A DNA stretch of 26,273 nt from a virus. The stretch covers positions 1 through 26,273 of the IMG/VR virus record IMGVR_UViG_3300046002_005059; one strand, written 5' to 3'. Of the stretch, positions 3-12,875 are shown in pieces (positions within the stretch are counted from its first letter, which is position 1; each line of letters starts with the position of its first letter). Under the pieces are notes generated by a model. It made no database searches. It was not told the DNA's origin and saw only the letters and a list, made by a program, of their open reading frames with translations. Position numbers and translations under genes: made by a program.

Positions 3-236
3 AGTATTGATGAAGACTCAGATGAATTTGTTGAATATCACAACATGTCAGAAACAGATCAATTAATACTGGATGCTGCATTATACGAAGATTCTGTTTA
101 CGTTGATAATGAATTTACTGATTTAGATGAGTGGTGTCAACACACAGCAGAAGGTGAATATGAATCGTTAGATGGTGATATAGTAAAAGCAAAAATCAAC
201 AAAATGATTGAATTAGAATTAATTACAATTGATTAG
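3..236 (+). CDS. Small acidic protein, 5' end outside window
   Basis: The frame is open from base 3 to the TAG at 234-236. The first ATG inside it is at 45, but no promoter box or A-rich leader precedes that ATG, unlike every other gene in this block, and the codons before it read as the same acidic protein. I therefore treat it as a gene that began before the window; a 63-residue product from ATG 45 is the alternative. The visible part is rich in Asp and Glu, with no signal peptide or membrane segment. No family recognised. Its TAG stop is part of the upstream box of the next promoter (233-243). Confidence 0.7.
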   Translation, partial: SIDEDSDEFVEYHNMSETDQLILDAALYEDSVYVDNEFTDLDEWCQHTAEGEYESLDGDIVKAKINKMIELELITID

Positions 237-265
237 GACTACAAAGTTTATTAATGTATATTTAA
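233..265 (+). promoter_or_regulatory. Bipartite cassette promoter P1 (for 309 gene)
   Basis: TTAGGACTACA at 233-243, 12 nt, then GTATATTTAA at 256-265. The TAG stop of the preceding gene (234-236) lies in the box. TTAG to TATATTTA is separated by 20 nt, matching Bacteroides -33/-7 geometry. One of twelve copies with an identical spacer. Confidence 0.8.
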
Positions 266-308
266 AGTATAAAAGAAATAAATATAAACATTTAAAACAC
301 ACAACATT

Positions 309-575
309 ATGAAACAAGAATTAATTGACTTAGTATCTAACAATTTAGAAACAGTTAAACGAAACAAAATTAAATTTGAAATCGACTTAATACATAGTTG
401 TTATGATGGTTCAATGAGTAAAGACGATGTCATATATGAATTAGAACATATGTTTGATAGGTGTGTTACAGTTGAAGATGTTATTAATGAAATTGATTTT
501 AAAGATTTTGGTGGTGATCGTTGTTGTGATGAAGATTTATATAGCAATATTAAATCATTGATTGAAGATTATTAG
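309..575 (+). CDS. Hypothetical acidic protein, 88 aa
   Basis: An 88-residue soluble acidic protein, mostly predicted helical, with Cys at residue 31, 52, 72 and 73 but no regular zinc-binding spacing. No family recognised. The start at 309 is supported by promoter P1 about 45 nt upstream and by an A-rich leader ending AAAACACACAACATT just before the ATG. There is no Shine-Dalgarno sequence, as usual in Bacteroidota. It forms a single-gene cassette: its TAG stop (573-575) is inside the box of promoter P2. Likely an early host-takeover or accessory gene, judged only by setting. Confidence 0.75.
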   Translation: MKQELIDLVSNNLETVKRNKIKFEIDLIHSCYDGSMSKDDVIYELEHMFDRCVTVEDVINEIDFKDFGGDRCCDEDLYSNIKSLIEDY

Positions 576-604
576 GCTTACAAGGTAAATTAATGTATAT
601 TTAA
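572..604 (+). promoter_or_regulatory. Bipartite cassette promoter P2 (for 625 gene)
   Basis: TTAGGCTTACA at 572-582, 12 nt, GTATATTTAA at 595-604. The stop codon of the 309-575 gene is the TAG in the box. Confidence 0.8.
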
Positions 605-624
605 CTTAAACAAAAAAAAGCAAC

Positions 625-804
625 ATGGAAAAATTAATTAATGATAAAGAATTTATGGATGAATTTGTTTCAATAGCTAACGAATCATTTATGTTTGGTG
701 GAGATTATGAATCGGTGTATGATCACTATGAATATAAATTAAGTGATAAAGAAATCCTAACATTACTAGATTATTGTGAGGAAAATGATTTATTGGAGGA
801 ATAG
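625..804 (+). CDS. Hypothetical acidic protein, 59 aa
   Basis: An open frame of 59 codons starting MEKLINDKEF and ending in a run of acidic and Leu residues before TAG at 802-804. It sits between promoters P2 and P3 exactly as its neighbours do, with the ATG 20 nt after the TATATTTAA element and an A-rich leader ending AAAAAGCAAC. No domain, signal or membrane segment is visible, and I do not recognise a family. Short, but the conserved promoter, spacing and stop-in-box arrangement make it a credible gene. Confidence 0.7.
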   Translation: MEKLINDKEFMDEFVSIANESFMFGGDYESVYDHYEYKLSDKEILTLLDYCEENDLLEE

Positions 805-833
805 GACTACATAACACACTAACGTATATTTAA
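801..833 (+). promoter_or_regulatory. Bipartite cassette promoter P3 (for 858 gene)
   Basis: ATAGGACTACA at 801-811, 12 nt, GTATATTTAA at 824-833. The TAG stop of the 625-804 gene lies in the box. Confidence 0.8.
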
Positions 834-857
834 ACAACCAATTAAAACAAACACACA

Positions 858-1076
858 ATGGCAAAACGTATTAAATTATATTACATAGGATGGCGAGGCA
901 ATCCACAACTAAAAAACGGTGGATATTATAAAGCATTTGGACAACTAAGCAAAACAGAAGCAAAATACAAAGAGCAAACATTGTATGGTTCAATGTCGTT
1001 ATATGAGTACGAAACAGAAGAGCAATATAATTCAGCATTAATAAAACACAAAGAAGAAGGATATAATATTCATTAG
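858..1076 (+). CDS. Hypothetical basic protein, 72 aa
   Basis: A 72-residue protein unusually rich in Tyr and Lys, beginning MAKRIKLYYIGWRG. The first part looks like a beta hairpin (KLYYIGWRGN ... GGYYKAFG) followed by a helix rich in Lys and Glu. Unlike its acidic neighbours it is basic, so nucleic-acid contact is possible, but that is speculation; no family recognised. The start lies 24 nt after promoter P3 with leader AAACACACA, and its TAG stop (1074-1076) is inside the box of P4. Confidence 0.75.
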   Translation: MAKRIKLYYIGWRGNPQLKNGGYYKAFGQLSKTEAKYKEQTLYGSMSLYEYETEEQYNSALIKHKEEGYNIH

Positions 1077-1105
1077 GCCTACACTATTCACTAACGTATA
1101 TTTAA
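1073..1105 (+). promoter_or_regulatory. Bipartite cassette promoter P4 (for 1123 gene)
   Basis: TTAGGCCTACA at 1073-1083, 12 nt, GTATATTTAA at 1096-1105, overlapping the stop codon of the 858-1076 gene. Confidence 0.8.
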
Positions 1106-1122
1106 TTTAAACAAAAAGCAAT

Positions 1123-1365
1123 ATGAACGAAATTAAAACAAATATAGCATATAACAAAGTATCAAAACAATTTGGTATTATAGTGTATTGGAATATTTAC
1201 GGTAATTTAGCTAAAATAATGAATATGGGAGCTTGGTCTCAAGATGAAATACAAATACTAACTAAAGAACAATATGAAATGTTAAGTTATTATACGAGAG
1301 AAATTGATATTAATGAAGGATGGCATTGTCCTAGTAAAAAATTAATTGAATATGTTTTTAAATAA
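1123..1365 (+). CDS. Hypothetical protein, 80 aa
   Basis: An 80-residue protein, likely soluble, with a beta-rich N-terminal half (KQFGIIVYWNIYGN) and a helical second half containing KEQYEMLSYYTREI. It has single Trp and Cys residues near the C-terminus (GWHCPSKKL). No family recognised. The ATG is 17 nt downstream of P4, with leader AACAAAAAGCAAT. Unlike the preceding genes it ends in TAA rather than a box-embedded TAG, and is followed by a GC-rich non-coding island. Confidence 0.72.
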   Translation: MNEIKTNIAYNKVSKQFGIIVYWNIYGNLAKIMNMGAWSQDEIQILTKEQYEMLSYYTREIDINEGWHCPSKKLIEYVFK

Positions 1366-1517
1366 TTTATTTCATAGTAATGTGATAAACCGTTGTTTTG
1401 GAATCCCAACTAGAATATAACAAGTAAATGTTTATGTGAGGAACTGAGATATGGTGGTGTGGTGTGAGGGTTGTGGAATCCCAACCCTCCCGTTCCGCTC
1501 CCTCCCGCCCCTCCTCG

Positions 1518-1535
1518 TCGACAAAATATATACTT
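1518..1535 (+). repeat. 18-bp repeated element, copy 1
   Basis: TCGACAAAATATATACTT, exactly repeated at 4634-4651. Both copies lie just upstream of a gene with a divergent cassette promoter and just after a GC-rich non-coding stretch, so it may be a regulatory site or a second promoter class. Confidence 0.6.
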
Positions 1536-1540
1536 TTCCA

Positions 1541-1573
1541 CTGTGCTTCCCCAATCCCCCCACGTATATTCAC
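1541..1573 (+). promoter_or_regulatory. Degenerate cassette promoter (for 1591 gene)
   Basis: CTGTGCTTCCC at 1541-1551 matches the box of P5 at 8 of 11 positions. It is followed by exactly 12 nt and GTATATTCAC at 1564-1573. The ATG is 17 nt further on. Confidence 0.5.
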
Positions 1574-1590
1574 ATAAAAACGCGCAAAAT

Positions 1591-1797
1591 ATGAAAACTA
1601 AACACACATACTCTACAGATTTATCGATTCGAATCGATGCAAAGCTCAATCAAATGGTGTTAATTAATCAACATTCCATAAATTTACTGAACGAAGGCAA
1701 AACACAAGAACAAATTCAGGTATGGTGCTCTTTGTTTGATGACTTGGAAGCAGAAGTAGAATCATTAATTTTAATTAAAGAATGCCTTTACTCTTAG
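1591..1797 (+). CDS. Small protein, possible ribbon-helix-helix, 68 aa
   Basis: The frame is open from 1471, but codons before 1591 are the C-rich island. ATG 1591 follows a promoter-like element and an A-rich leader, so I start there. The N-terminus has a short alternating strand (LSIRID, residues 11-16) followed by two helices (about 17-35 and 39-62), which loosely resembles a ribbon-helix-helix DNA-binding protein; this is a shape argument only. The second helix is acidic. A perfect 16-bp palindrome (1623-1638) encodes the strand. The TAG stop lies one base before the box of P5. Confidence 0.65.
   Translation: MKTKHTYSTDLSIRIDAKLNQMVLINQHSINLLNEGKTQEQIQVWCSLFDDLEAEVESLILIKECLYS
1623..1638. 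repeat. Perfect 16-bp palindrome inside CDS
   Basis: ATCGATTCGAATCGAT reads identically on both strands. It lies 33 bp into the 1591 gene. It could be an operator-like or methylation-related site, or only a consequence of the coding sequence. Confidence 0.5.
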
Positions 1798-1830
1798 TTA
1801 GGCTTCCCAACCCCCAATTTGTATATTTAA
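1798..1830 (+). promoter_or_regulatory. Bipartite cassette promoter P5 (for 1846 ORF)
   Basis: TTAGGCTTCCC at 1798-1808, 12 nt, GTATATTTAA at 1821-1830. The box differs from consensus at its last three bases (CCC for ACA) and begins one base after the TAG stop of the upstream gene. Confidence 0.7.
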
Positions 1831-1845
1831 AATAAAACACACACC

Positions 1846-1932
1846 ATGAAACTAGAATTAATAGAAGAAATTAAATTTATTTGGGGTAACGGCGTAGTAG
1901 AGGAAATGGCCATAGCCATCTGTCTCAACTAG
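1846..1932 (+). CDS. Short peptide, 28 aa
   Basis: ATG 1846 to TAG 1930-1932 encodes 28 residues (begins MKLELIEEIKFIWGNG). It has a full-strength cassette promoter 16 nt upstream and the characteristic leader AAAACACACACC, so translation is likely even though the product is tiny. It may be a complete micropeptide, or a gene truncated when the tRNA-like region immediately downstream was inserted. Codons after about residue 15 are GC-richer than in the neighbours (GGCGTAGTAGAGG, ATGGCC). No function recognised. Confidence 0.5.
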   Translation: MKLELIEEIKFIWGNGVVEEMAIAICLN

Positions 1933-1972
1933 TTCAGCAAAATAAAACGTTGTTTGAGTTGAATTAACATAT

Positions 1973-2046
1973 AGTCAGGTAGCTCAATCCTAGAGCCCTA
2001 ATTTGGATTAGGAAGATGCAGGTACGATCGAATCCTGTCCTGACTT
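1973..2046 (+). tRNA. Atypical tRNA-like sequence, Pro(TGG)-like anticodon
   Basis: A perfect 7-bp acceptor stem (AGTCAGG 1973-1979 with CCTGACT 2039-2045), T8-A9, a 4-bp D-stem (GCTC/GAGC), a 5-bp anticodon stem (CCTAA/TTAGG) and a T-stem (GCAGG/CCTGT) make a 74-nt cloverleaf. Three features are abnormal. The D-loop is AATCCTA, without the GG normally contacting the T-loop. The anticodon loop is TTTGGA, six rather than seven bases. The T-loop is TACGATCGAAT, as if four bases had been inserted into TTCGAAT. With the usual T33 the anticodon would be TGG (Pro), but the short loop makes this uncertain (TTG, Gln, is possible). No CCA is encoded. It may be a decayed tRNA, a tRNA altered to resist host nucleases, or a tRNA-like regulatory RNA. 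Confidence 0.55.
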
Positions 2047-2308
2047 ATTTAACTAAACATAATTTCACCATATGTATCACCGAATAAAGAACGGGATACT
2101 AAAGGGCGCCACAGGTCGTAACTCCACAGTACCATCTCTAGTATTTACTCGATTAGAAAAGCTGTGGGACTCAGTAGCAAAATTCGTGAGCCAAGTGGGT
2201 GTAAATGTACCTCGACTATAAGAAACGAAATCGGCATGTTGTTATTGAAAAGCTGGTAAGAGATTGCCGGCTATCGTTATGCTTAAGAAATTTTACCTTT
2301 ATTATTCA
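2047..2308 (+). other. Unexplained GC-richer stretch, possible RNA or two tiny ORFs
   Basis: About 260 bp between the tRNA-like sequence and promoter P6. It has noticeably more G and C than its surroundings. It contains a 49-codon frame (2072-2221) and a 35-codon frame (2205-2312, whose TAG stop is inside the P6 box), overlapping by 17 nt. Neither has a cassette promoter or leader. Possible structures are CCACAG 2124-2129 with CTGTGG 2162-2167 and AGCTGG 2251-2256 with CCGGCT 2267-2272. I cannot decide between a structured RNA and short genes, and I recognise neither. Confidence 0.35.
2072..2221 (+). CDS. Doubtful ORF, 49 aa
   Basis: ATG 2072 to TAA 2219-2221. The product is basic (begins MYHRIKNGILKGATG) and uses codons such as CTG, GTG, GGC and GCC that are rare elsewhere here. 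No leader like those of the neighbours precedes it, and no promoter lies between it and the tRNA-like sequence. It may be foreign DNA, or an open frame by chance in a structured RNA. No family recognised. Confidence 0.25.
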   Translation: MYHRIKNGILKGATGRNSTVPSLVFTRLEKLWDSVAKFVSQVGVNVPRL

Positions 2309-2312
2309 TTAG
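2205..2312 (+). CDS. Doubtful ORF, 35 aa, stop in promoter box
   Basis: ATG 2205 to TAG 2310-2312. It is basic (begins MYLDYKKRNRHVV) and overlaps the end of the preceding doubtful frame. The only argument for it is that its TAG stop falls in the upstream box of P6, exactly as the stops of the 309, 625 and 858 genes do in theirs. A coincidence of the box always containing TAG is equally possible. Confidence 0.25.
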   Translation: MYLDYKKRNRHVVIEKLVRDCRLSLCLRNFTFIIH

Positions 2313-2341
2313 GATTACAGAACTTCACATCGTATATTTAC
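2309..2341 (+). promoter_or_regulatory. Bipartite cassette promoter P6 (for 2345 gene)
   Basis: TTAGGATTACA at 2309-2319, 12 nt, GTATATTTAC at 2332-2341. The ATG follows only 3 nt after the element, so the transcript is probably leaderless or nearly so. Confidence 0.75.
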
Positions 2342-2344
2342 AGT

Positions 2345-2509
2345 ATGAAAAAAGAAACACAACTGACAGTTGAAGAAGTACAGTATTCAACATCACTAAA
2401 CACTATAAATTGGGGTAAACAATTTAAACATTTTACTACTAAGAAACGAGTAATCAAAACGTTACCTATTAAGAACCCAGGTACAGATGTTTTTATATTT
2501 GCTGAATAG
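2345..2509 (+). CDS. Hypothetical protein, 54 aa
   Basis: The frame opens at 2264, but ATG 2345 is chosen because promoter P6 ends at 2341; any earlier start would place the promoter inside the gene. With a usual initiation distance of about seven bases from the -7 element, the ATG would be at or very near the 5' end of the transcript. The 54-residue product is basic, with a Lys/Thr-rich middle (FKHFTTKKRVIKTLPI), and carries no recognised motif. Its TAG stop (2507-2509) is inside the box of P7. Confidence 0.6.
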   Translation: MKKETQLTVEEVQYSTSLNTINWGKQFKHFTTKKRVIKTLPIKNPGTDVFIFAE

Positions 2510-2538
2510 GATTACAGAATAACACATTGTATATTTAA
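2506..2538 (+). promoter_or_regulatory. Bipartite cassette promoter P7 (for 2580 gene)
   Basis: ATAGGATTACA at 2506-2516, 12 nt, GTATATTTAA at 2529-2538, overlapping the stop codon of the 2345 gene. Confidence 0.8.
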
Positions 2539-2579
2539 ACAACTTAAAAAATTAATATAAACATTTAAAACAACTAACT

Positions 2580-2957
2580 ATGACAACAGAGACAAAATTA
2601 AAATTAGAAGCAATTTACAATGAATACTGTATGAATGACTTGAATTCATTAGGTAATGAAGATGTTGAATTTACTGACATGATGAAGCAATTTGTTAAAT
2701 TCAGACTAAAAGTAAGCGGGGGTGCAAAGACAACTATGGGTGCAGGTATGGGTTGTGAAAGTATAAGTAGTTTTTTAGATGAAATTTGTTTATATGATGA
2801 TATGATGTGTGATTGGGGTGGTGAGTATAGAGGTAGTTTTTGTTGGGAAAATTTAGAAGGTTTGAGTGAATTATTAAATGAAAGTGATTTAGATGAAGTA
2901 ATTAAAGATGAAATAATTGAAATGTATAAATTTAGATGTAATATGAATGAAGATTAG
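2580..2957 (+). CDS. Hypothetical acidic protein, 125 aa
   Basis: One of the larger proteins of the accessory block, strongly acidic, with a Gly/Met-rich middle segment (GGAKTTMGAGMGC, about residues 47-59) between helical flanks and several Cys residues. No signal peptide or membrane helix is visible, and no family is recognised. The ATG follows P7 with the shared leader ending AAAACAACTAACT. Its TAG stop is followed by a hairpin whose 3' arm is the box of promoter P8, instead of sharing the TAG with the box. Confidence 0.78.
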   Translation: MTTETKLKLEAIYNEYCMNDLNSLGNEDVEFTDMMKQFVKFRLKVSGGAKTTMGAGMGCESISSFLDEICLYDDMMCDWGGEYRGSFCWENLEGLSELLNESDLDEVIKDEIIEMYKFRCNMNED

Positions 2958-2971
2958 TTGTGAATAATATA

Positions 2972-2999
2972 GTAGGCCTAGTGTAATGACTAGGCTTAC
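2972..2999 (+). terminator. Hairpin fused to promoter P8 box
   Basis: GTAGGCCTAGT (2972-2982) pairs over 11 positions (one G-T) with ACTAGGCTTAC (2989-2999), loop GTAATG. The 3' arm is the upstream box of P8. No strong T-run follows, so termination is a guess; an inverted-repeat protein site is the alternative. Confidence 0.55.
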
Positions 3000-3022
3000 A
3001 TTACAATACATTGTATATTTAA
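2990..3022 (+). promoter_or_regulatory. Bipartite cassette promoter P8 (for 3072 gene)
   Basis: CTAGGCTTACA at 2990-3000, 12 nt, GTATATTTAA at 3013-3022. The box forms the right arm of the hairpin at 2972-2999. Confidence 0.8.
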
Positions 3023-3071
3023 ATTATAAGAAAATAAATAATTAATTTAAACAATTTAAAACACAACTACT

Positions 3072-3305
3072 ATGTCAAAATTTCAAATCAAATCAATGTT
3101 CGAGCAAATCGCAACACAAGTATTTACAATGAAAGATGTAAACGCTGCTAAAACGTTTATTAATGAGTTCGTTAATGATAAAGACATTAATGACATTGAT
3201 AAAAAAGTAATATTAAATAACATCAAAGACATTAAACACATTAACAAGCTTCAGACATATATTTGTAATTCATTACTTAAATATGAAGGAATGAGTGTTA
3301 ATTAA
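3072..3305 (+). CDS. Hypothetical helical protein, 77 aa
   Basis: A 77-residue, largely alpha-helical soluble protein (begins MSKFQIKSMFEQIATQVF), roughly neutral, with many Lys, Asp and Ile/Asn residues. No domain recognised. It is preceded by P8 and a long leader of the shared type ending AAAACACAACTACT, giving an untranslated region of about 50 nt. The stop is TAA; P9 begins a few bases later. A single-gene cassette by arrangement. Confidence 0.75.
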   Translation: MSKFQIKSMFEQIATQVFTMKDVNAAKTFINEFVNDKDINDIDKKVILNNIKDIKHINKLQTYICNSLLKYEGMSVN

Positions 3306-3309
3306 AACA

Positions 3310-3342
3310 TTAGGATTACAAAACATATTAATGTATATTTAA
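3310..3342 (+). promoter_or_regulatory. Bipartite cassette promoter P9 (for 3391 gene)
   Basis: TTAGGATTACA at 3310-3320, 12 nt, GTATATTTAA at 3333-3342. It matches the commonest form of the box. Confidence 0.8.
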
Positions 3343-3390
3343 ACAATTAAAAGATAAATAAATAATATAAACAATTAAAAACACACAATT

Positions 3391-3783
3391 ATGACAAATC
3401 AAACATTAGATCAATTCATCGCTCAAGAATTAAAAAACGAAGTAAAACAATTAGGACGCAAAGTAGATCCGAACAGTGAACGTCAGAAACGATTAGCTGA
3501 GTTAGCAACGAAACGTGAAAGCGGTGATTTTAAACGCGGCCGACCAATAAACGGTGAATCAGCACGTCAAGCAAGATTAGCAGATTTAAATGAACGTCGT
3601 GAAAGCGGTGAATTAAGAAAAGGTCGTCCTGTATCAGGTGACAGTGAACGTCAAAAACGATTAGCAGAACGTGAAGCGAAAGCAGCAGCGGGCGTAGAAG
3701 TAAAACGCGGACGACCAGCAGCGTCTAAAGTAGTAACTGAAGTAGTAGTAACAAGTGATGTGATTGATTCAGAAGATAAGTAG
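3391..3783 (+). CDS. AT-hook-type repeat DNA-binding protein, 130 aa
   Basis: After an N-terminal helix (residues 1-20), the protein carries units of about 32 residues with the pattern GRP-x-x-x-x-S-x-RQ-x-RLA. The basic cores are LGRKVDP (about 22-28), KRGRPIN (48-54), RKGRPVS (80-86) and KRGRPAA (104-110). The R-G-R-P core flanked by Lys/Arg is the AT-hook motif, which binds the minor groove of AT-rich DNA; the first unit has lost the proline core. The linkers are charged helices. The tail is acidic. A likely role is binding the phage's own AT-rich DNA or host DNA, as nucleoid-like or transcription factors do. Its codons are GC-richer than the neighbours' because of Arg, Ala and Gly. It is transcribed from P9. 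Confidence 0.78.
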   Translation: MTNQTLDQFIAQELKNEVKQLGRKVDPNSERQKRLAELATKRESGDFKRGRPINGESARQARLADLNERRESGELRKGRPVSGDSERQKRLAEREAKAAAGVEVKRGRPAASKVVTEVVVTSDVIDSEDK

Positions 3784-3796
3784 TGTTGTGTATAGT

Positions 3797-3824
3797 GTAA
3801 GTCTAATAGTAATGTTAGGCTTAC
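3797..3824 (+). terminator. Hairpin fused to promoter P10 box
   Basis: GTAAGTCTAA (3797-3806) pairs with TTAGGCTTAC (3815-3824), ten positions with one G-T, loop TAGTAATG. It is followed by TTATTTTT, so it could terminate the 3391 transcript while its 3' arm acts as the P10 box. Confidence 0.6.
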
Positions 3825-3847
3825 ATTATTTTTAAATGTATATTTAA
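3815..3847 (+). promoter_or_regulatory. Bipartite cassette promoter P10 (for 3894 gene)
   Basis: TTAGGCTTACA at 3815-3825, 12 nt, GTATATTTAA at 3838-3847. The box forms the right arm of the hairpin at 3797-3824. Confidence 0.8.
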
Positions 3848-3893
3848 TTAACTTAAAAATAAATAATTAATATAAACTTAAAACACAACGACT

Positions 3894-4043
3894 ATGAAAA
3901 CAATCACAATTAATGTAAATCAAGAACAACTAGACATGATTAAACAATTATTAAATTTAGAAGATGATGTAACTGATAGTTTCATTATACAAGAATTCAT
4001 AATTGAGAATACACGTATAGATGAAGACGGTGACGAGTTTTAA
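3894..4043 (+). CDS. Small acidic protein, 49 aa
   Basis: ATG 3894 to TAA 4041-4043. The product begins with an alternating strand (KTITINVN) followed by a helix (QEQLDMIKQLL) and a second helix, then an acidic tail ending DEDGDEF. The strand-helix-helix order is compatible with a very small ribbon-helix-helix fold, but no diagnostic residues confirm it. It lies between P10 and P11 with the shared leader ending AAAACACAACGACT, so it is a credible cassette gene despite its size. Confidence 0.65.
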   Translation: MKTITINVNQEQLDMIKQLLNLEDDVTDSFIIQEFIIENTRIDEDGDEF

Positions 4044-4056
4044 ATAATGATAATAA

Positions 4057-4084
4057 GTAGTTCTAACAGTAATGTTAGGACTAC
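4057..4084 (+). terminator. Hairpin fused to promoter P11 box
   Basis: GTAGTTCTAA (4057-4066) pairs with TTAGGACTAC (4075-4084), ten positions with one G-T, loop CAGTAATG. Compared with the P10 hairpin, both arms changed together (AG with CT there, GT with AC here). No T-run follows. Confidence 0.55.
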
Positions 4085-4107
4085 ATTATATCAAAACGTA
4101 TATTTAA
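4075..4107 (+). promoter_or_regulatory. Bipartite cassette promoter P11 (for 4152 gene)
   Basis: TTAGGACTACA at 4075-4085, 12 nt, GTATATTTAA at 4098-4107. The box forms the right arm of the hairpin at 4057-4084. Confidence 0.8.
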
Positions 4108-4151
4108 ATATAATAAAAATAAATAATATAAACAATTTAAAACAACTAACT

Positions 4152-4319
4152 ATGACAGTAAAAGAATTAATTGACAGATTAAGTAAGTATGATGACAATG
4201 TAATAGTATGTCTTAACATAGACAGAGAGTCAGGAACAATAGGATCAGAGTTAGAAATGATAGATGATGAAGGTATTAATTTTGATGAGCCATGTCTTAT
4301 ATTATCTGGTAAAGAGTAA
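4152..4319 (+). CDS. Small conserved-type phage protein, 55 aa
   Basis: The frame is open from an ATG at 4047, but promoter P11 (4075-4107) lies inside that extension, and ATG 4152 follows the shared leader ending AAAACAACTAACT, so I start at 4152. The protein begins MTVKELIDRLSKYDDNVIV, a helix followed by a strand. This resembles a widespread group of small phage proteins of unknown function that begin with a KELIxxLxKxDPxxxV pattern. The second half is acidic and beta-rich. No biochemical role can be read from it. Confidence 0.7.
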   Translation: MTVKELIDRLSKYDDNVIVCLNIDRESGTIGSELEMIDDEGINFDEPCLILSGKE

Positions 4320-4341
4320 ATAACTAATTAAGAACATAACG

Positions 4342-4370
4342 AACTCGAACCCTGTAAGGTTTGAGTTTTG
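4342..4370 (+). terminator. Hairpin terminator after 4152 gene
   Basis: AACTCGAACC (4342-4351) pairs with GGTTTGAGTT (4358-4367), ten positions with one G-T, loop CTGTAA, followed by TTGTGT. It ends the run of uninterrupted cassettes. Confidence 0.65.
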
Positions 4371-4561
4371 TGTCCCTGAGTTATGTATATATGCGTATGT
4401 ATATATTCATGATGTATACCCACGCGCGTTGGTATCCATGACGGCGGTGCGTACGCGCAGCGAAAAATGCGATATAATAATTCCGATATATTACCCTTTA
4501 CACCCCGATGTATATATACTTATATACTCAACACCAACCTCACCCAAACAAAAAGCACACC

Positions 4562-4621
4562 ATGTTCCCAAAAATGGATTTCAGGCCAAATCCAAAGGAC
4601 CACAAAAATATCTCCTTATAA
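4562..4621 (+). CDS. Possible micropeptide, 19 aa
   Basis: ATG 4562 to TAA 4619-4621, sequence MFPKMDFRPNPKDHKNISL. The leader AAAAAGCACACC before the ATG resembles the cassette leaders (compare AAAACACACACC before 1846), and GTATATATAC lies 43 nt upstream. These are the only reasons to list it. The product has no recognisable motif. Confidence 0.25.
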   Translation: MFPKMDFRPNPKDHKNISL

Positions 4622-4633
4622 GATCTTTCGGCA

Positions 4634-4651
4634 TCGACAAAATATATACTT
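4634..4651 (+). repeat. 18-bp repeated element, copy 2
   Basis: Identical to 1518-1535. It lies about 50 bp upstream of the ATG of the 4700 membrane protein gene. Confidence 0.6.
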
Positions 4652-4662
4652 ATATAAATTAA

Positions 4663-4696
4663 ATTGGATTAAACAAAAAATCATTAATATATTTAC
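4663..4696 (+). promoter_or_regulatory. Degenerate cassette promoter (for 4700 gene)
   Basis: ATTGGATTAAA at 4663-4673 matches the box at 8 of 11 positions and is followed, after 14 nt, by TATATTTAC at 4688-4696. The ATG is 3 nt downstream, as with P6, suggesting a leaderless message. Confidence 0.4.
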
Positions 4697-4699
4697 AAT

Positions 4700-4864
4700 A
4701 TGGAAAAAATAATAGGATTCTTCATAAGTAGTACCATCTGGTATTTAATATTTTCATTCGTTGCATGGAATATAAATGCATTTGAGTGGCATTGGGGTGT
4801 GCGTTTAGCATTCGCTTTAATTATATTGTTTAATATGCGCGATACTATTAATAAAGATGAGTAG
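4700..4864 (+). CDS. Small membrane protein, two helices, 54 aa
   Basis: ATG 4700 to TAG 4862-4864. Two hydrophobic segments are visible: about residues 4-24 (begins IIGFFISSTIWYL) and about 33-50 (VRLAFALIILF), separated by a short Trp-rich turn (FEWHWG) and followed by a charged tail. This is a two-pass inner-membrane protein of unknown function. Small phage membrane proteins of this kind often act in lysis or superinfection exclusion, but nothing here decides. The ATG is almost at the promoter, so the mRNA is probably leaderless. A tRNA-Glu gene follows. Confidence 0.65.
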   Translation: MEKIIGFFISSTIWYLIFSFVAWNINAFEWHWGVRLAFALIILFNMRDTINKDE

Positions 4865-4919
4865 GTAGTATATACGTATTGATATATGAAGAGCGCATGA
4901 TGTACTTTTAGAGTAAAAT

Positions 4920-4991
4920 GCTCCGTTCGTCTAACGGTTAGGACGTACCCCTTTCACGGGTAAAATATGAGTTCGATTCTCATACAGAGTA
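4920..4991 (+). tRNA. tRNA-Glu(TTC)
   Basis: A complete cloverleaf. The acceptor is GCTCCGT (4920-4926) with ACAGAGT (4984-4990; one C-A mismatch, one G-T). The D-arm is GTCT/GGAC with loop AACGGTTA, the anticodon stem TACCC/GGGTA with loop CTTTCAC (anticodon TTC), and the T-arm ATGAG/CTCAT with loop TTCGATT. The discriminator is A4991, followed by CA. The segment TTCGTCTAACGGTTAGGAC looks like bacterial tRNA-Glu, particularly that of Bacteroidota as I remember it. It probably supplements host Glu decoding in this GAA-rich genome. Confidence 0.9.
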
Positions 4992-5021
4992 CAAAAATAG
5001 GAGGAAGAAAGAAACTTAACC

Positions 5022-5053
5022 TTGCGCTTGTCTTATTCTTACATATATTTATA
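5022..5053 (+). promoter_or_regulatory. Probable promoter (for 5087 gene)
   Basis: TTG at 5022-5024 and TATATTTA at 5044-5051 are separated by 19 nt, fitting the Bacteroides consensus TTTG-N19-21-TAnnTTTG. It lacks the TTAGGNYTACA box. Confidence 0.45.
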
Positions 5054-5086
5054 ATAAAATTAAAACATATTTAAACTATAAAATAA

Positions 5087-5527
5087 ATGAAAAGAACAGA
5101 ATTACAATCTTTAATCAATGAATGTATTGGTGAAGTATTAAATGAAGGAAAAGTTAAAAAGAAAAAATTAGCTATTCAAGAAATCAAACGCATCATTGCT
5201 GAAAATGAATTAAGTGAAGCTGATTTAGATGAAATTAGTGTAATGGGTACTCTTAAAAGAGCAGGTGATATAGGTAAACAAACATTAGGTATTTCTTCTG
5301 AAAAAGATAAAGCCGCTGCTATGGCGTCACTTGATATGGCTATTAAAGGTTTAGGAAAAGAAATTTCTAAAGAACAAAAAGATAAATTAATAGCAAATGC
5401 TAAATCATATTCTTTTATGGGTGAGTTTAAAGTTACTAAAGATAGTAAAGGTAATAAAATCATTACTTTTGATGGTAAATCAGCTGCCCCTAAAACAACT
5501 AATCCAAATCCAACAGGCGCTAAATAA
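5087..5527 (+). CDS. Unknown protein with ELxxLI N-terminal helix, 146 aa
   Basis: A Lys/Ala-rich, mostly helical protein of 146 residues with a Pro/Thr/Asn-rich C-terminal tail (SAAPKTTNPNPTGAK). The N-terminus (MKRTELQSLINECIGEVLNE) has the same pattern as the 12893 gene (MKPSELKNLIKTAMKEAIQE). Short amphipathic starts of this sort recur in structural proteins of T4-like marine phages, so this may be virion-associated, but that is inference. Residues about 108-128 look like a beta hairpin (FMGEFKVTKDSKGNKIITFD). A strong terminator follows at 5551-5576, so it is probably a single-gene transcript. Confidence 0.7.
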   Translation: MKRTELQSLINECIGEVLNEGKVKKKKLAIQEIKRIIAENELSEADLDEISVMGTLKRAGDIGKQTLGISSEKDKAAAMASLDMAIKGLGKEISKEQKDKLIANAKSYSFMGEFKVTKDSKGNKIITFDGKSAAPKTTNPNPTGAK

Positions 5528-5547
5528 CTAATTAATATATTAATGAT

Positions 5548-5576
5548 AAAGCCGGTCTCTTCAGATCGGCTTTTTT
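5548..5576 (+). terminator. Rho-independent terminator
   Basis: GCCGGTCT/AGATCGGC (5551-5558 and 5563-5570), loop CTTC, preceded by AAA and followed by six T. It is the strongest terminator here. Its T-run ends two bases before promoter P12. Confidence 0.9.
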
Positions 5577-5577
5577 G

Positions 5578-5610
5578 TTAGGATTACACAGTTTTTGAAC
5601 GTATATTTAA
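5578..5610 (+). promoter_or_regulatory. Bipartite cassette promoter P12 (for 5624 gene)
   Basis: TTAGGATTACA at 5578-5588, 12 nt, GTATATTTAA at 5601-5610. This is the last full copy; it likely drives 5624 and perhaps 6166. Confidence 0.8.
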
Positions 5611-5623
5611 TCAACCAATTAAA

Positions 5624-6160
5624 ATGAATATCATGGAAACGAGAGATTTAGATAGATTAGTAAAAATTAATATTAATCCATTCACGGTGATGCATTTTAA
5701 AACAGATCATACCTCAGAAGAGTTAGAAGCTATGTTCACAGAAGTAGCAATAAATGGGGGTGCAGATTTAATTGAAAAAGCACTTAAAAATATAGTTGAA
5801 ATTGAAATTTCGTTGTTTGAGAGTATTATGTTTATGACTAAAAATGATTTAACTGCGTTTTTATCTTTACTTAATAAATGTGATATAAGATATGAAATGA
5901 GAAATTTTACTAAGGATTTATTTGAAATGGATAATTTAAATGAATTGTTACTTAAATTAGAAAATGATGATGATTTAAGTGAATTAGATAAAGAACTTAT
6001 CAATGATTGTTTTCCAAACCATAAAACACAAAGAGAAAAAGCTACTAGTATTATTAAGTCAATATTTTTAAATAACTTTACTACTGATGATGTATTAGAT
6101 ATAATTAATACTAAAGGATCAGGTTCATTAAATGAATTTCATAAAAACCTATTAAAATAA
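5624..6160 (+). CDS. Hypothetical helical protein, 178 aa
   Basis: A 178-residue soluble, helix-rich, acidic protein. Two start codons are possible: 5624, which I use because it is the first after promoter P12 and an A-rich leader, or 5633, three codons later. The middle (about residues 100-125) is very acidic with leucine repeats (LLLKLENDDDLSELDKEL). No family recognised. The 6166 gene begins 5 nt after its stop, so the two probably share a message. Confidence 0.78.
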   Translation: MNIMETRDLDRLVKININPFTVMHFKTDHTSEELEAMFTEVAINGGADLIEKALKNIVEIEISLFESIMFMTKNDLTAFLSLLNKCDIRYEMRNFTKDLFEMDNLNELLLKLENDDDLSELDKELINDCFPNHKTQREKATSIIKSIFLNNFTTDDVLDIINTKGSGSLNEFHKNLLK

Positions 6161-6993: not shown

Positions 6994-7425
6994 ATGAATA
7001 TAAATAACATATTCAATTCGTTCAGTAGTTCAGATGATGAGTTTGACGATACATCTTTACTTATTGATTTTTCCGATCATCCATTATTCTGGATAGGAGG
7101 ATTTAATAAATTAATAGGTAACCATTTATTTTTTAAACAACACACAATTAAAATTTTTAAACATATTTCCCCTGAGTTAAATATAGAGGAGGTTGAAAAA
7201 GCAGGTGAACACCTTATGTTTGAAAAAGCGTGGGAATACATTAGAAACATTAATTTAGAAAACCAATTTCATGTAGAATGTATACGAGGTAAATCTTCAG
7301 ATGAATTCCTTAAAAACGTAGAATTCACCTTAAGGTTTTTTGAGGAGTTTGAAGAATATGAAAAATGTGCATTATTAAAAAAGATAGAAGATAAGATAAA
7401 AGAATTTACATTTAAGCTTGGCTAA
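6994..7425 (+). CDS. Hypothetical protein, 143 aa
   Basis: A soluble 143-residue protein with an acidic Ser-rich start (FSSSDDEFDDTS), a short aromatic segment (HPLFWIGGFNKLIGNHLFF, about residues 28-46) and a helical Glu/Lys-rich remainder. No family recognised. It starts 20 nt after the preceding terminator with no clear cassette promoter, so its promoter is unknown. Its stop codon lies within a degenerate copy of the promoter box that serves the 7511 gene. Confidence 0.75.
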   Translation: MNINNIFNSFSSSDDEFDDTSLLIDFSDHPLFWIGGFNKLIGNHLFFKQHTIKIFKHISPELNIEEVEKAGEHLMFEKAWEYIRNINLENQFHVECIRGKSSDEFLKNVEFTLRFFEEFEEYEKCALLKKIEDKIKEFTFKLG

Positions 7426-7449
7426 TAGATCTTATAAGCGTATATTTCA
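7417..7449 (+). promoter_or_regulatory. Degenerate cassette promoter (for 7511 gene)
   Basis: CTTGGCTAATA at 7417-7427 (7 of 11 to the box), exactly 12 nt, then GTATATTTCA at 7440-7449. It contains CTTG at the -33 position and the TAA stop of the upstream gene. Confidence 0.45.
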
Positions 7450-7510: not shown

Positions 7511-7705
7511 ATGAGAAACAGAGAAGCAACGTTGAGAAAACTAGATGGATTAGAATCTAATCTAACTAAATTAAATTTCGCCTTAAGACAAGGTAATAGA
7601 GAACAGTATGATGAAGTACTATCTAACATTCAAGAACAGATTAGTCAATTAAAATTATACATTGAATCTGAACCTTTAGCAGGGCATGAATTAAATAGAG
7701 TTTAA
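7511..7705 (+). CDS. Small coiled-coil protein, 64 aa
   Basis: A 64-residue, almost entirely helical protein with a heptad-like pattern from about residue 6 to 52 (LRKLDGLESNLTKLNFAL ... YDEVLSNIQEQISQLKLYI), so a coiled coil is likely. It ends with a short non-helical tail. Similar small helical proteins sit near late-regulation genes in T4-like phages of marine bacteria, but I cannot name this one. It lies 17 nt before the HD-domain gene and is likely co-transcribed with it. Confidence 0.72.
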   Translation: MRNREATLRKLDGLESNLTKLNFALRQGNREQYDEVLSNIQEQISQLKLYIESEPLAGHELNRV

Positions 7706-8847: not shown

Positions 8848-9552
8848 ATGTCCAAAAATTATTTCACACAAGAAACTGAAGATGCTATTGTAGCTTATAA
8901 TACTAGTATTGATTTTACTGAAAGAAGTAAAATATATGATGATAAAATTCATTATGCTTTTTTTAAATTAACTCAAAATATTATACATACATTTAAATTT
9001 TACTATACTGAAGTAGAAAATATAGAAGACTTACAACATGAGGTAATTATATTCTTACTATCTAAGATACATAAGTTTGATCCATCCAGAGGAGCAAAAG
9101 CGTATTCATATTTTGGGACAATTGTAAAACGTTGGTTGATTACATATAATGATGTAAATTACAAAAAACGCGTTAATTCATCTCCTGTATCTGTATTAGA
9201 AGAAGATAACTCACACTCTTACGTAATAGAAGAAAATAATTCACCCTCAGATAAATTACCTAATAGTGATAAAATTTCATTATTCATAGATATGTACATA
9301 GAATATTGCACTAACAATATATATACTTTGTTTCCTAAAGACATTGATGCTAAAATAGCAGATGCCATTCTTGAATTATTTAGAAAACGAGAAAATTTAG
9401 ATATATTTAATAAAAAAGCACTATACATATATATTAGAGAAATGGTAGATGTTAAAACACCAAAAATAACTAAAATAGCTGATAAATTATATGATATATA
9501 TAGAAAAAACTATATATTTTATTTAGAAAACGGATATATAAAATTTCAATAG
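8848..9552 (+). CDS. Late-transcription sigma factor, gp55-like, 234 aa
   Basis: Residues about 58-108 form a sigma region 2: NIEDLQHEVIIFLLSKI, then FDPSRGAKAYSYFGTIVKRWL, the pattern DLxQE...FDPxxGxxAxxYF used to bind the RNA polymerase clamp and melt the -10 element. Upstream are helices; downstream is a charged linker (about 109-140) and a C-terminal helical region without a clear region 4. This layout fits T4 gp55 (185 aa), the sigma that works with a sliding clamp to transcribe late genes from TATAAATA promoters; at 234 aa it is longer. An ordinary ECF sigma is less likely because region 4 is not evident. It lies directly before the structural block it probably switches on. Confidence 0.82.
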   Translation: MSKNYFTQETEDAIVAYNTSIDFTERSKIYDDKIHYAFFKLTQNIIHTFKFYYTEVENIEDLQHEVIIFLLSKIHKFDPSRGAKAYSYFGTIVKRWLITYNDVNYKKRVNSSPVSVLEEDNSHSYVIEENNSPSDKLPNSDKISLFIDMYIEYCTNNIYTLFPKDIDAKIADAILELFRKRENLDIFNKKALYIYIREMVDVKTPKITKIADKLYDIYRKNYIFYLENGYIKFQ

Positions 9553-9555
9553 TCA

Positions 9556-9571
9556 ATATTTATAATAAATA
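9556..9571 (+). promoter_or_regulatory. Candidate promoter before structural block
   Basis: ATATTTATAATAAATA lies 14 nt before ATG 9586 and contains AATAAATA, one mismatch from the T4 late core TATAAATA. It is well placed to start the virion gene transcript. Confidence 0.4.
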
Positions 9572-9585
9572 CATATTATCAAATC

Positions 9586-9930
9586 ATGAGTAATAATTTA
9601 GATTCCGATATCTTTGGTGGTAAAAAGCTTAAAGATTTATTTCAAGAAATATATAATAACCAAAAGAAAAAAGAAAAGCAAATTTCATCTTTAATTGATG
9701 AATTAAAACCAATGGTTGAAAGTATTGGTGATGCTACATTGGTTGTTCCTTTACTTAAAGAATACTTAGAGATAGGTGTTAAAAATGATGAACAATTAAT
9801 TAAGATGGCTACAATTATCCAACGTTGTTTAACAACAGGTAATTCAAGTGGTGGAGGAGATGGATTTACAATTTCAGAAGAAGAAAAAAGTCAATTATTA
9901 AACGACATAAATAAATTAAACGAAAAATAA
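9586..9930 (+). CDS. Conserved small structural-block protein, 114 aa
   Basis: A 114-residue helical protein: IFGGKKLKDLFQEIYNNQKKKEKQI (residues 9-33), a middle segment (GDATLVVPLLKEYLEIGVKNDEQLIKMA) and an SGGG linker before a short C-terminal helix. I recall proteins with this middle segment in T4-like phages of related hosts, ahead of baseplate genes, without assigned function. Its stop codon (TAA, 9928-9930) directly abuts the ATG of the gp5-like gene, so the two are translated together. A virion, assembly or late-transcription accessory role is possible. Confidence 0.75.
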   Translation: MSNNLDSDIFGGKKLKDLFQEIYNNQKKKEKQISSLIDELKPMVESIGDATLVVPLLKEYLEIGVKNDEQLIKMATIIQRCLTTGNSSGGGDGFTISEEEKSQLLNDINKLNEK

Positions 9931-11179: not shown

Positions 11180-12025
11180 ATGGCTGAAATTCCACCAATA
11201 AAAATACCCACTGGGGATATATTATCTAAAAAAGATAATGTGTTTGGTGAAAAATCTGGAGTGGACTTGACAAAGAGTGTTAATTTAAATTCTAATCCTT
11301 TTCAAATATCTGGATTATTTTTAGGAGAAAAATTTATTGATGTCTCACCAGATTCATCATTATATGCTAATACAGCTGGGTGGAATGCATTTCAAAATTT
11401 TTTAACCGCAAAAGGAATAGTTAAAGATCCATCTAATAATTCTGAAGAGAATAAAAAATTAGCAAATGAATTAATAATAGAATTTAATTCAGGAACAGCT
11501 AAAATTAATGAAAAAACATTTGATCATGTGGTAAAATATCCTTTTAATAAGATTACAACTAAACAAATTATATTCGCACAAACATATCATAAAATAGTAG
11601 ACCCCAAAGTACAGATAGATGGGTGGGTGGGAAGTCAAACTTCCCAATTAAGATATCCTACGATTTTAGGAGCATACACACCAACACCTGGTGATGCTAC
11701 CATGCCTGCTAAAAAAACAGGTTTCATTCCAATAATTTGGGGTAATAAAAGATTTGTTACTAAAATAGAGGATCAAATTACAAATTCTAAAAATACTAAA
11801 ACACAATTACCACCTAAATCATTATGGATTATATATGATGAAAATCTTCATAAAGCAACTTTAGATCTTACACGCATAGGTAAAGAATGGTATCTTTTAG
11901 ATCAATCTCTTGAAATTACTAAATCTGCATCTCAATTAAATATAATAACAGCACAAACCAATAAAATAAAAGAAAATTTTAAAACTCAATCAAGTATTAT
12001 AAATTCTATTTTGCCTAAAGGATAA
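11180..12025 (+). CDS. Unknown tail/baseplate-block protein, 281 aa
   Basis: A 281-residue soluble protein. Residues 136-160 (YHKIVDPKVQIDGWVGSQTSQLRYP) contain DGWVGSQT, recalling the DGxxGxxT signature of peptidoglycan-binding domains, and the preceding helix (residues 60-110) would fit, but the match is partial. The C-terminal third is helical and ends with a likely coiled segment. It starts one base after the gp5-like stop, so it is presumably part of the hub or its cargo; it might supply the cell-wall contact that the gp5-like protein lacks. That is inference. Confidence 0.7.
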   Translation: MAEIPPIKIPTGDILSKKDNVFGEKSGVDLTKSVNLNSNPFQISGLFLGEKFIDVSPDSSLYANTAGWNAFQNFLTAKGIVKDPSNNSEENKKLANELIIEFNSGTAKINEKTFDHVVKYPFNKITTKQIIFAQTYHKIVDPKVQIDGWVGSQTSQLRYPTILGAYTPTPGDATMPAKKTGFIPIIWGNKRFVTKIEDQITNSKNTKTQLPPKSLWIIYDENLHKATLDLTRIGKEWYLLDQSLEITKSASQLNIITAQTNKIKENFKTQSSIINSILPKG

Positions 12026-12032
12026 TATCAAA

Positions 12033-12875
12033 ATGACAGGAAAAGACAAAATACCTATTTTATTAGTTGAAAAGAGCCAAGACTTAATCAAACTAATACT
12101 TCCCAAAATTACAGATATAGTAATTAAAATAGGAATCGAAAATATAGGCCAACCCGATGTTAAATTACCTGACATTTGCTTACCAGCATCTGAAATAAAA
12201 CCATTAATAGACTTAAGAAACAATATAATAGATAAATTAAATTCAGTGTCTAAGACAATTGAAAATTTATCTAAACCTCTTACTCCATTAAATAAAGTAG
12301 TAAATACAACAACACAAATTTTACAAACTTTAAGTACCGCTGTAACAGTAGCACAAACCGCAATTCCTCTTCTCCCAACACCTCCACCCGGCGCCCCAAA
12401 CCCAGCAAATATAGCATTAATAGCTTTAGGTAAAATACAAGATTTAGAAAGAAAATTATTCCCTGAAATTACAAAAACAAAAAACTCAATAAATAATATT
12501 ACAGACGCGGTAGATCATGTAAATTTAATTATATCCAAAATATTAAATATATTAAATTCAATAGATAAATACCTAATAAAGTGTAAACCAACTGACTCTC
12601 CTGATTTAGTATCATTAAATACTTATTTAACTACAGTTGTTGATAACGCTAATAAAGTTGAAAACGCGCCAATACTTAGTGAAAATTATAAAGGATTTAT
12701 ATTAGATATAGTTGAACAACCATTTTCTTCTACTACAAAAAGATCAAAAGCCGTGGCTAAAAACAATAGTGGTATTATATTATTACAAACATCCTTATCA
12801 TTCACATCAACACCACAAGTTTTAATTGAAGAACTTAAACTAATAATCGACAAAAATAATTTAAGAGCTGACTAA
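12033..12875 (+). CDS. Coiled-coil tail protein, 280 aa
   Basis: The N-terminal two thirds are helical with long Ile/Leu/Asn-rich segments (about 1-110 and 125-195) around a Pro-rich turn (LPTPPPGAPNP, about 114-124), suggesting an elongated coiled coil. The last 60 residues (YKGFILDIVEQ ... RSKAVAKNNSGIILLQTSLSFTS ... LIEELKLIID) form a compact alpha-beta module that I remember at the C-terminus of structural proteins in other large myoviruses. The name and exact place in the virion are not known to me. It follows the 281-aa gene by 7 nt and belongs to the baseplate operon. Confidence 0.72.
   Translation: MTGKDKIPILLVEKSQDLIKLILPKITDIVIKIGIENIGQPDVKLPDICLPASEIKPLIDLRNNIIDKLNSVSKTIENLSKPLTPLNKVVNTTTQILQTLSTAVTVAQTAIPLLPTPPPGAPNPANIALIALGKIQDLERKLFPEITKTKNSINNITDAVDHVNLIISKILNILNSIDKYLIKCKPTDSPDLVSLNTYLTTVVDNANKVENAPILSENYKGFILDIVEQPFSSTTKRSKAVAKNNSGIILLQTSLSFTSTPQVLIEELKLIIDKNNLRAD

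Follow-up and report, generated by a model that had tools for sequence, protein, structure and literature searches.

The window analysed here, the 26,273 bases of virus record IMGVR_UViG_3300046002_005059, carries twelve copies of a bipartite element, TTAGGNYTACA followed by N12 and GTATATTTAA, all on the plus strand and with 0–2 mismatches each. We consider it probable that these elements are promoters at which host RNA polymerase would recognise the −7 element TATATTTA, while the box TAGGNYTACA, which substitutes for the −33 element of host promoters, would be read by a phage-encoded specificity factor docking on the polymerase, in a manner resembling sigma appropriation. On this view, the promoters would serve single-gene units that make up a prereplicative array, early or middle in timing, of an immuto-like phage of the T4 type with a host among the Bacteroidota, and docking of the factor would switch on the whole array jointly.

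The first-pass annotation of this DNA had listed twelve sites, and all were found where it had placed them: a search allowing three mismatches returned 12 matches on the plus strand and none on the minus strand, with 0.07 expected from dinucleotide shuffles. A scoring matrix of 33 positions, trained on other contigs only with the window left out, gave the twelve copies scores of 22.5–36.5. The next-best scores in the window were 18.1 at 1542 (plus strand), 17.4 at 759 (minus strand) and 16.5 at 7418 (plus strand), and the rest fell below 4. The minus-strand site (729–759) lies antisense within the gene at 625–804 and may be a chance match or an antisense promoter. The twelve array promoters, as identified by the mismatch search and the matrix, are listed below with two degenerate copies and with the gene that each would drive.

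233–265, plus strand: array promoter 1 (box TTAGGACTACA, N12, GTATATTTAA), for 309–575; the open reading frame (ORF) ending at 236 stops at the TAG of the box
572–604, plus strand: array promoter 2, for 625–804; 309–575 stops at the TAG of the box
801–833, plus strand: array promoter 3, for 858–1076; 625–804 stops at the TAG of the box
1073–1105, plus strand: array promoter 4, for 1123–1365; 858–1076 stops at the TAG of the box
1540–1572, plus strand: degenerate copy (TGTGCTTCCC-N13-TATATTCA, score 18.1) before 1591–1797, absent from the first-pass list
1798–1830, plus strand: array promoter 5 (TTAGGCTTCCC, two mismatches), followed by a 28-codon ORF at 1847–1933
2309–2341, plus strand: array promoter 6, for 2345–2509
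2506–2538, plus strand: array promoter 7, for 2580–2957; the preceding ORF stops at the TAG of the box
2990–3022, plus strand: array promoter 8, for 3072–3305
3310–3342, plus strand: array promoter 9, for the AT-hook repeat gene 3391–3783
3815–3847, plus strand: array promoter 10, for 3894–4043
4075–4107, plus strand: array promoter 11, for 4152–4319
5578–5610, plus strand: array promoter 12, for 5624–6160
7416–7448, plus strand: degenerate copy (TTGGCTAATA-N13-TATATTTC, score 16.5) before 7511–7705

The earlier statement that each copy drives one small gene holds for nine of the eleven intervals; the copy at 1798 precedes only the 28-codon ORF and then a tRNA-like stretch. That the units are interchangeable fits the almost complete turnover of array genes between phages, to which one gene, encoding the AT-hook repeat protein, is the main exception.

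The array recurs in other phages. An exact scan of viral contigs with the motif returned 30 stretches, and several contigs carry 13–46 copies on one strand. With at most one mismatch per half, a distance of 13 nucleotides between box and TATATTTA was found in 216 pairs from 11 box-bearing contigs, which are fragmentary metagenomic assemblies, not independent where related, and include near-duplicates (G004/G007 and G005/G006); the other 20 distances tested (5–25 nucleotides) gave scattered single matches only. The fixed spacer described in the first-pass annotation is thus kept outside the window as well. In a logo built from 261 copies, the consensus is RTTAGGMYTACAARAT ... TATATTTA, with about ten strongly conserved box positions plus the −7 element, an A-rich leader and an enrichment of A five nucleotides past the −7 element, where the start is expected. 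The copies are intergenic and on one strand: among 214 of them, only three lie inside ORFs of more than 100 amino acids, in 63 the ORF before the copy terminates at the TAG of the box, and the median predicted leader to the start codon is 20 nucleotides. Equal occurrence inside genes and on the opposite strand, which had been named beforehand as telling against promoters, is therefore not what these contigs display. The contig G023, found through a helix-turn-helix (HTH) protein rather than through the motif, held 40 matches on one strand, compared with 1 + 1 in the reversed control.

The geometry of the element is that of a Bacteroidota promoter. In the syntenic array of Flavobacterium phage immuto, promoters take the form AGTTG-N20-TATATTTAG, and the 23 nucleotides from the start of TTG to TATA equal the distance from the start of TAGG to TATA in the box phages. 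The −7 element of F. johnsoniae spans −12 to −5, with starts 4–5 nucleotides downstream and a −33 element that is barely evident (PMC6847099). From this location and start distance we infer a position of −35 to −26 for the 10-bp box TAGGNYTACA, which takes over from the host-type TTG at −33; the MotA box of T4 occupies the same place when 13 bp from the −10 element (PMC2988021). The sequence hence supports the original proposal of a −33/−7 geometry with a box longer than a −33 element. Relative to the consensus TTTG/TAHHTTTG of the primary sigma factor (sigma-ABfr), the array promoters agree in the position of the −7 element, in most of its bases and in the −33 to −7 spacing as seen in immuto. 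TATATTTA is present in 211 of the 261 copies and matches TAHHTTTG except at its last base, −5, which is A in 98% of copies, whereas G is nearly invariant in the host. The host −33 TTG/TTTG is likewise missing from most copies, and GNYTACA is conserved in addition. At the second box position, 85% of the 261 copies have A and 11% have T, and half of the G003 boxes read TAGG and half TTGG; TTG is therefore not the conserved feature. Among 84,980 cellular genomes, a strict scan that used the A-ending −7 form TATATTTA, in place of the G-ending host consensus, gave a single chance-like match, in Paraglaciecola rather than in a member of the Bacteroidota, and the box was rejected as a host promoter element.

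Evidence on how the box is read comes from its exchange between lineages. Relatives were gathered by a scan for the AT-hook repeat protein, not by promoter, which yielded 74 loci; the downstream block from the T5orf172-domain gene to the baseplate is recognisable in most of them. TATATTTA or near −7 forms are shared by their promoters, a constancy that is partly selected since promoters were chosen by −7 element and leader, whereas the box region was unselected and is variable:

window type: TTAGGMYTACA
L267: GGTAGTCAAAA
L255: ACGTGGNTGGGCA
L221: AGAGGAATA
L218: TTANCCGAGRTT
L246/L248: TTTTGANAAAC
L272: GTTTGGCTTCAC
L278: AGTTTGGCTAA
L241: ATTTGGTTA
L123/L126: GTTTGGCYYNC (from the scan with the sigma-region-2 protein)

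Unrelated boxes (CCGAG, GTGGNGGGGCA, AGGAATA and GGTAGTCA) occupy the same slot of orthologous arrays. Matrices built for box types A, B, C, D, E and F and for immuto recognised 56–96% of their own promoters and mostly 0–11% of each other's, and are thus nearly exclusive. The repeats, their geometry, their strand bias, their position before genes and the divergence of the box around a common −7 element are established from the sequence. Promoter arrays other than the window type, each with its own long box, were seen at L271, L272, L278, L241, L255, L218 and L267; long conserved spacers (GATGT and ACACGATTCG) occur as well in L272 and L278.

Preferences as different as CCGAG and GTGGNGGGGCA in two phages, with the −7 element unchanged, are not expected of a host sigma factor, and a phage reader that changes with the boxes would explain both; such a reader appears to fit better than a merely strong host promoter. 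Within each lineage, all boxes would be matched to their own reader, and box and reader would drift together while −7 element and layout stay constant. The suggestion of a phage activator in the first-pass annotation gains from lineages that exchange the box yet keep the −7 element, even if no candidate reader fits cleanly, as set out below. From these patterns we infer promoter activity, temporal class, and the existence and mode of the reader. For a whole group of Bacteroidota T4-type phages, the evidence leaves evenly balanced the broader proposition that control resembles sigma appropriation and that the box is a lineage-specific address tag, recognised by a fast-diverging phage reader that activates only its own accessory array.

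The same elements could instead be strong immediate-early promoters for unmodified host RNA polymerase, the box being an extended −33 element tuned to the host sigma and the lineages differing because the sigma factor or other polymerase contacts of their hosts differ. We regard this as unlikely. In its favour, the −33 position is where the box is found, there are gradations from TTGG to TAGG, the tiny array genes of unknown function resemble early host-takeover genes, and T4 early promoters, which serve many functionally unassigned genes, too carry more consensus than those of the host (PMC2988021). It is difficult to reconcile with boxes such as CCGAG, GTGGNGGGGCA, AGGAATA and GGTAGTCA, which bear no relation to TTTG, with the lack of TTG in about 85% of copies, with the near-absence of a −33 signal from F. 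johnsoniae promoters (PMC6847099), and with the strict motif being essentially absent from cellular genomes when scanned with TATATTTA. Early promoters of enterobacterial T4-like phages, which are host-read, keep a common GTTTAC −35 element (PMC1524935).

The candidates for a phage reader are an XRE-like HTH protein and the AT-hook repeat protein. The promoter of the HTH gene has a host-type TTG near −33 in all five TAGG phages that hold it, a pattern noticed post hoc but as expected of a regulator made ahead of its targets. The recognition helix varies between groups with different boxes, which common descent could also explain. The AlphaFold model of the HTH protein is good, with a pLDDT of 85, and its matches in the PDB are mostly XRE proteins, with E > 0.5. 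The AT-hook protein was rejected as sole reader: all ten TAGG-array records tested have it, but so do some others, and immuto lacks it; in the window its own gene lies under a perfect box.

Several observations weigh against a phage-read box. No HTH homolog was detectable in G058 (174,694 bases), which has a TAGG-type array; on this clear counterexample the HTH protein was rejected as an obligatory reader, though it stays a candidate. The gene is also present in two TTGG-type records. No match to the MotA and AsiA profiles (PF09114 and PF09010) was found in 15 records, in a search in which the positive controls were silent too. The genome-wide null result rested on TATATTTA, whereas the host consensus has a terminal G. 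Finally, box types A, G, H, I and J overlap in cross-scoring through a T(A/T)GGCTT core; their series also overlaps TTTG, the −33 element of Bacteroidota, and part of the box family could be host-read.

It is much less probable that box and −7 element are both recognised, with no part for the host sigma, by a phage RNA polymerase or by a phage sigma factor such as the product of 8848–9552. The phage does encode a protein with sigma-70 region 2, and a fixed spacing suits a single reader. Immuto, however, encodes that protein at 46.5% identity although its own promoters are of the plain TTG form, and the protein occurs in relatives with quite different boxes, making it unlikely as the box reader; moreover, separate late-type TATTTATAATA motifs precede structural genes, and the array −7 element is of host type.

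Least credible of all, and in our judgement very improbable, is that the repeats are mainly sites of homologous exchange or RNA hairpin or terminator elements, with incidental promoter activity. Array genes do turn over while repeats persist, overlaps between promoters and terminator-like hairpins occur in other contigs, and three of the twelve window copies form the 3' arm of a strong hairpin with G-U wobble pairs, a feature that the first-pass annotation had not mentioned. The three are listed here with a further hairpin next to promoter 12:

2972–2999, plus strand: hairpin with the box of promoter 8 as 3' arm (−18.2 kcal/mol, z −4.5, 10/10 pairing)
3792–3829, plus strand: 17-bp hairpin with the box of promoter 10 as 3' arm (−19.3 kcal/mol, z −7.65)
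4048–4093, plus strand: hairpin with the box of promoter 11 as 3' arm (−19.8 kcal/mol, z −6.5)
5548–5579, plus strand: intrinsic-terminator-like hairpin with T-run, immediately 5' of promoter 12

The hairpins at boxes 2990, 3815 and 4075 start 5–15 nucleotides past the preceding stop codon. Over 261 copies, however, hairpins with the box as 3' arm were no commoner than in shuffles, so that a general role as hairpin or terminator arm was rejected and this punctuation is a local feature; the −7 element, A-rich leader, strand bias and nearness to start codons are promoter features. In G001 (L098, L099), several promoters without the box overlap a terminator-like hairpin, GGCTTGGGAAACCAAGCC, for example before the genes at 123826, 125027, 136955 and 142574; there TTGG lies 23 nucleotides before TATATTTA and the T-run falls within the spacer. 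Elsewhere in the window, the tRNA-like sequence at 1969–2045 has an acceptor stem AGTCAGG/CCTGACT and a seemingly expanded T-arm; ARAGORN and Rfam call no tRNA, and it is possibly decayed or interrupted. Two non-coding stretches of deviating composition (1370–1590 and 4330–4690) each contain TCGACAAAATATATACTT, have no Rfam match and are possible further promoters or RNA genes.

Gene content and order identify the window as part of the genome of an immuto-like myovirus of the T4 type. Its baseplate wedge protein shares 46% identity over the full length with that of immuto, and it has the gene order of the immuto group: small-gene array, T5orf172-domain gene, HD phosphohydrolase, sigma-region-2 protein, and baseplate wedge and other baseplate genes. 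The −7 type and the kinship with immuto point to a host from the Bacteroidota. Further features are as follows.

3391–3783, plus strand: AT-hook repeat protein (RGRP/KGRP repeats), the most conserved array gene across relatives
5044–5054, plus strand: late-promoter-like TATTTATAATA
8848–9552, plus strand: sigma-70 region 2 protein (PF04542, E = 2.7e-6), probably a gp55-like late sigma factor
9557–9567, plus strand: late-promoter-like TATTTATAATA, before 9586–9930

The late-type TATTTATAATA is confined to one strand in most box contigs; G001 has five on the other strand too. Together with the array promoters it brings the number of promoter classes to at least two, with host-type TTG promoters as a possible third. 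In G007 (67255–68130) and G017 (11462–12340), about 55 residues are inserted in the sigma-region-2 protein, an insertion not present in the window or in other relatives. In PP395634 (Microcystis phage Mel-JY01), the baseplate and sigma-region-2 proteins share 46% and 38% identity, respectively, with the immuto group, and its stated cyanobacterial host may deserve checking.

A search of the accessible literature for published promoter motifs of Flavobacterium and Bacteroidetes phages turned up nothing relevant. Among the closest known systems are the MotA/AsiA-dependent middle promoters of T4, which likewise combine a host-type core with a phage box 12–13 bp upstream in many copies under one switch. 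The box near −30, relative to a start site predicted from sequence, displaces the host upstream element as in T4, and separate late-type promoters and a gp55-like sigma-region-2 protein add to the T4-type likeness. The array differs in its Bacteroidota-type core, in a box changed wholesale between related lineages and in its mostly tiny genes of unknown function. The MotA box consensus wwwTGCTTtA does not match TTAGGMYTACA, although a subset of copies has GCTT in common with it, by chance or not. Nor do the array promoters resemble T4-type late promoters (gp55, TATAAATA), where the late motif lies at the core without an upstream element. T4-like early promoters (GTTTAC −35; the 'uber' UP/−35/TGn/−10 form) are similar in their extra-long consensus and as strong repeats before many novel ORFs, but their −35 element is GTTTAC-like throughout (PMC1524935), whereas the equivalent slot here is unrelated between several lineages. 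The SAS and ESAS repeats of mycobacteriophages are also short, confined to one strand, found before many small genes and rare in the host (PMC3203893); SAS was proposed to act at translation starts, while the array element has promoter geometry upstream of a leader.

A 2010 review of T4 prereplicative transcription stated that sigma appropriation was not known outside T4-type phages, and the cases it listed infect Gammaproteobacteria (PMC2988021). If the favoured explanation is true, the array would represent parallel sigma appropriation in hosts of another phylum, whose primary sigma factor differs. The constant core with exchangeable boxes would provide a natural series for studying how promoter code and reader change together, and it bears on how phages bar competitors from their own promoters. 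The motif would also serve as a search handle for early accessory genes, candidates for host takeover or counter-defence, in uncultured phages.

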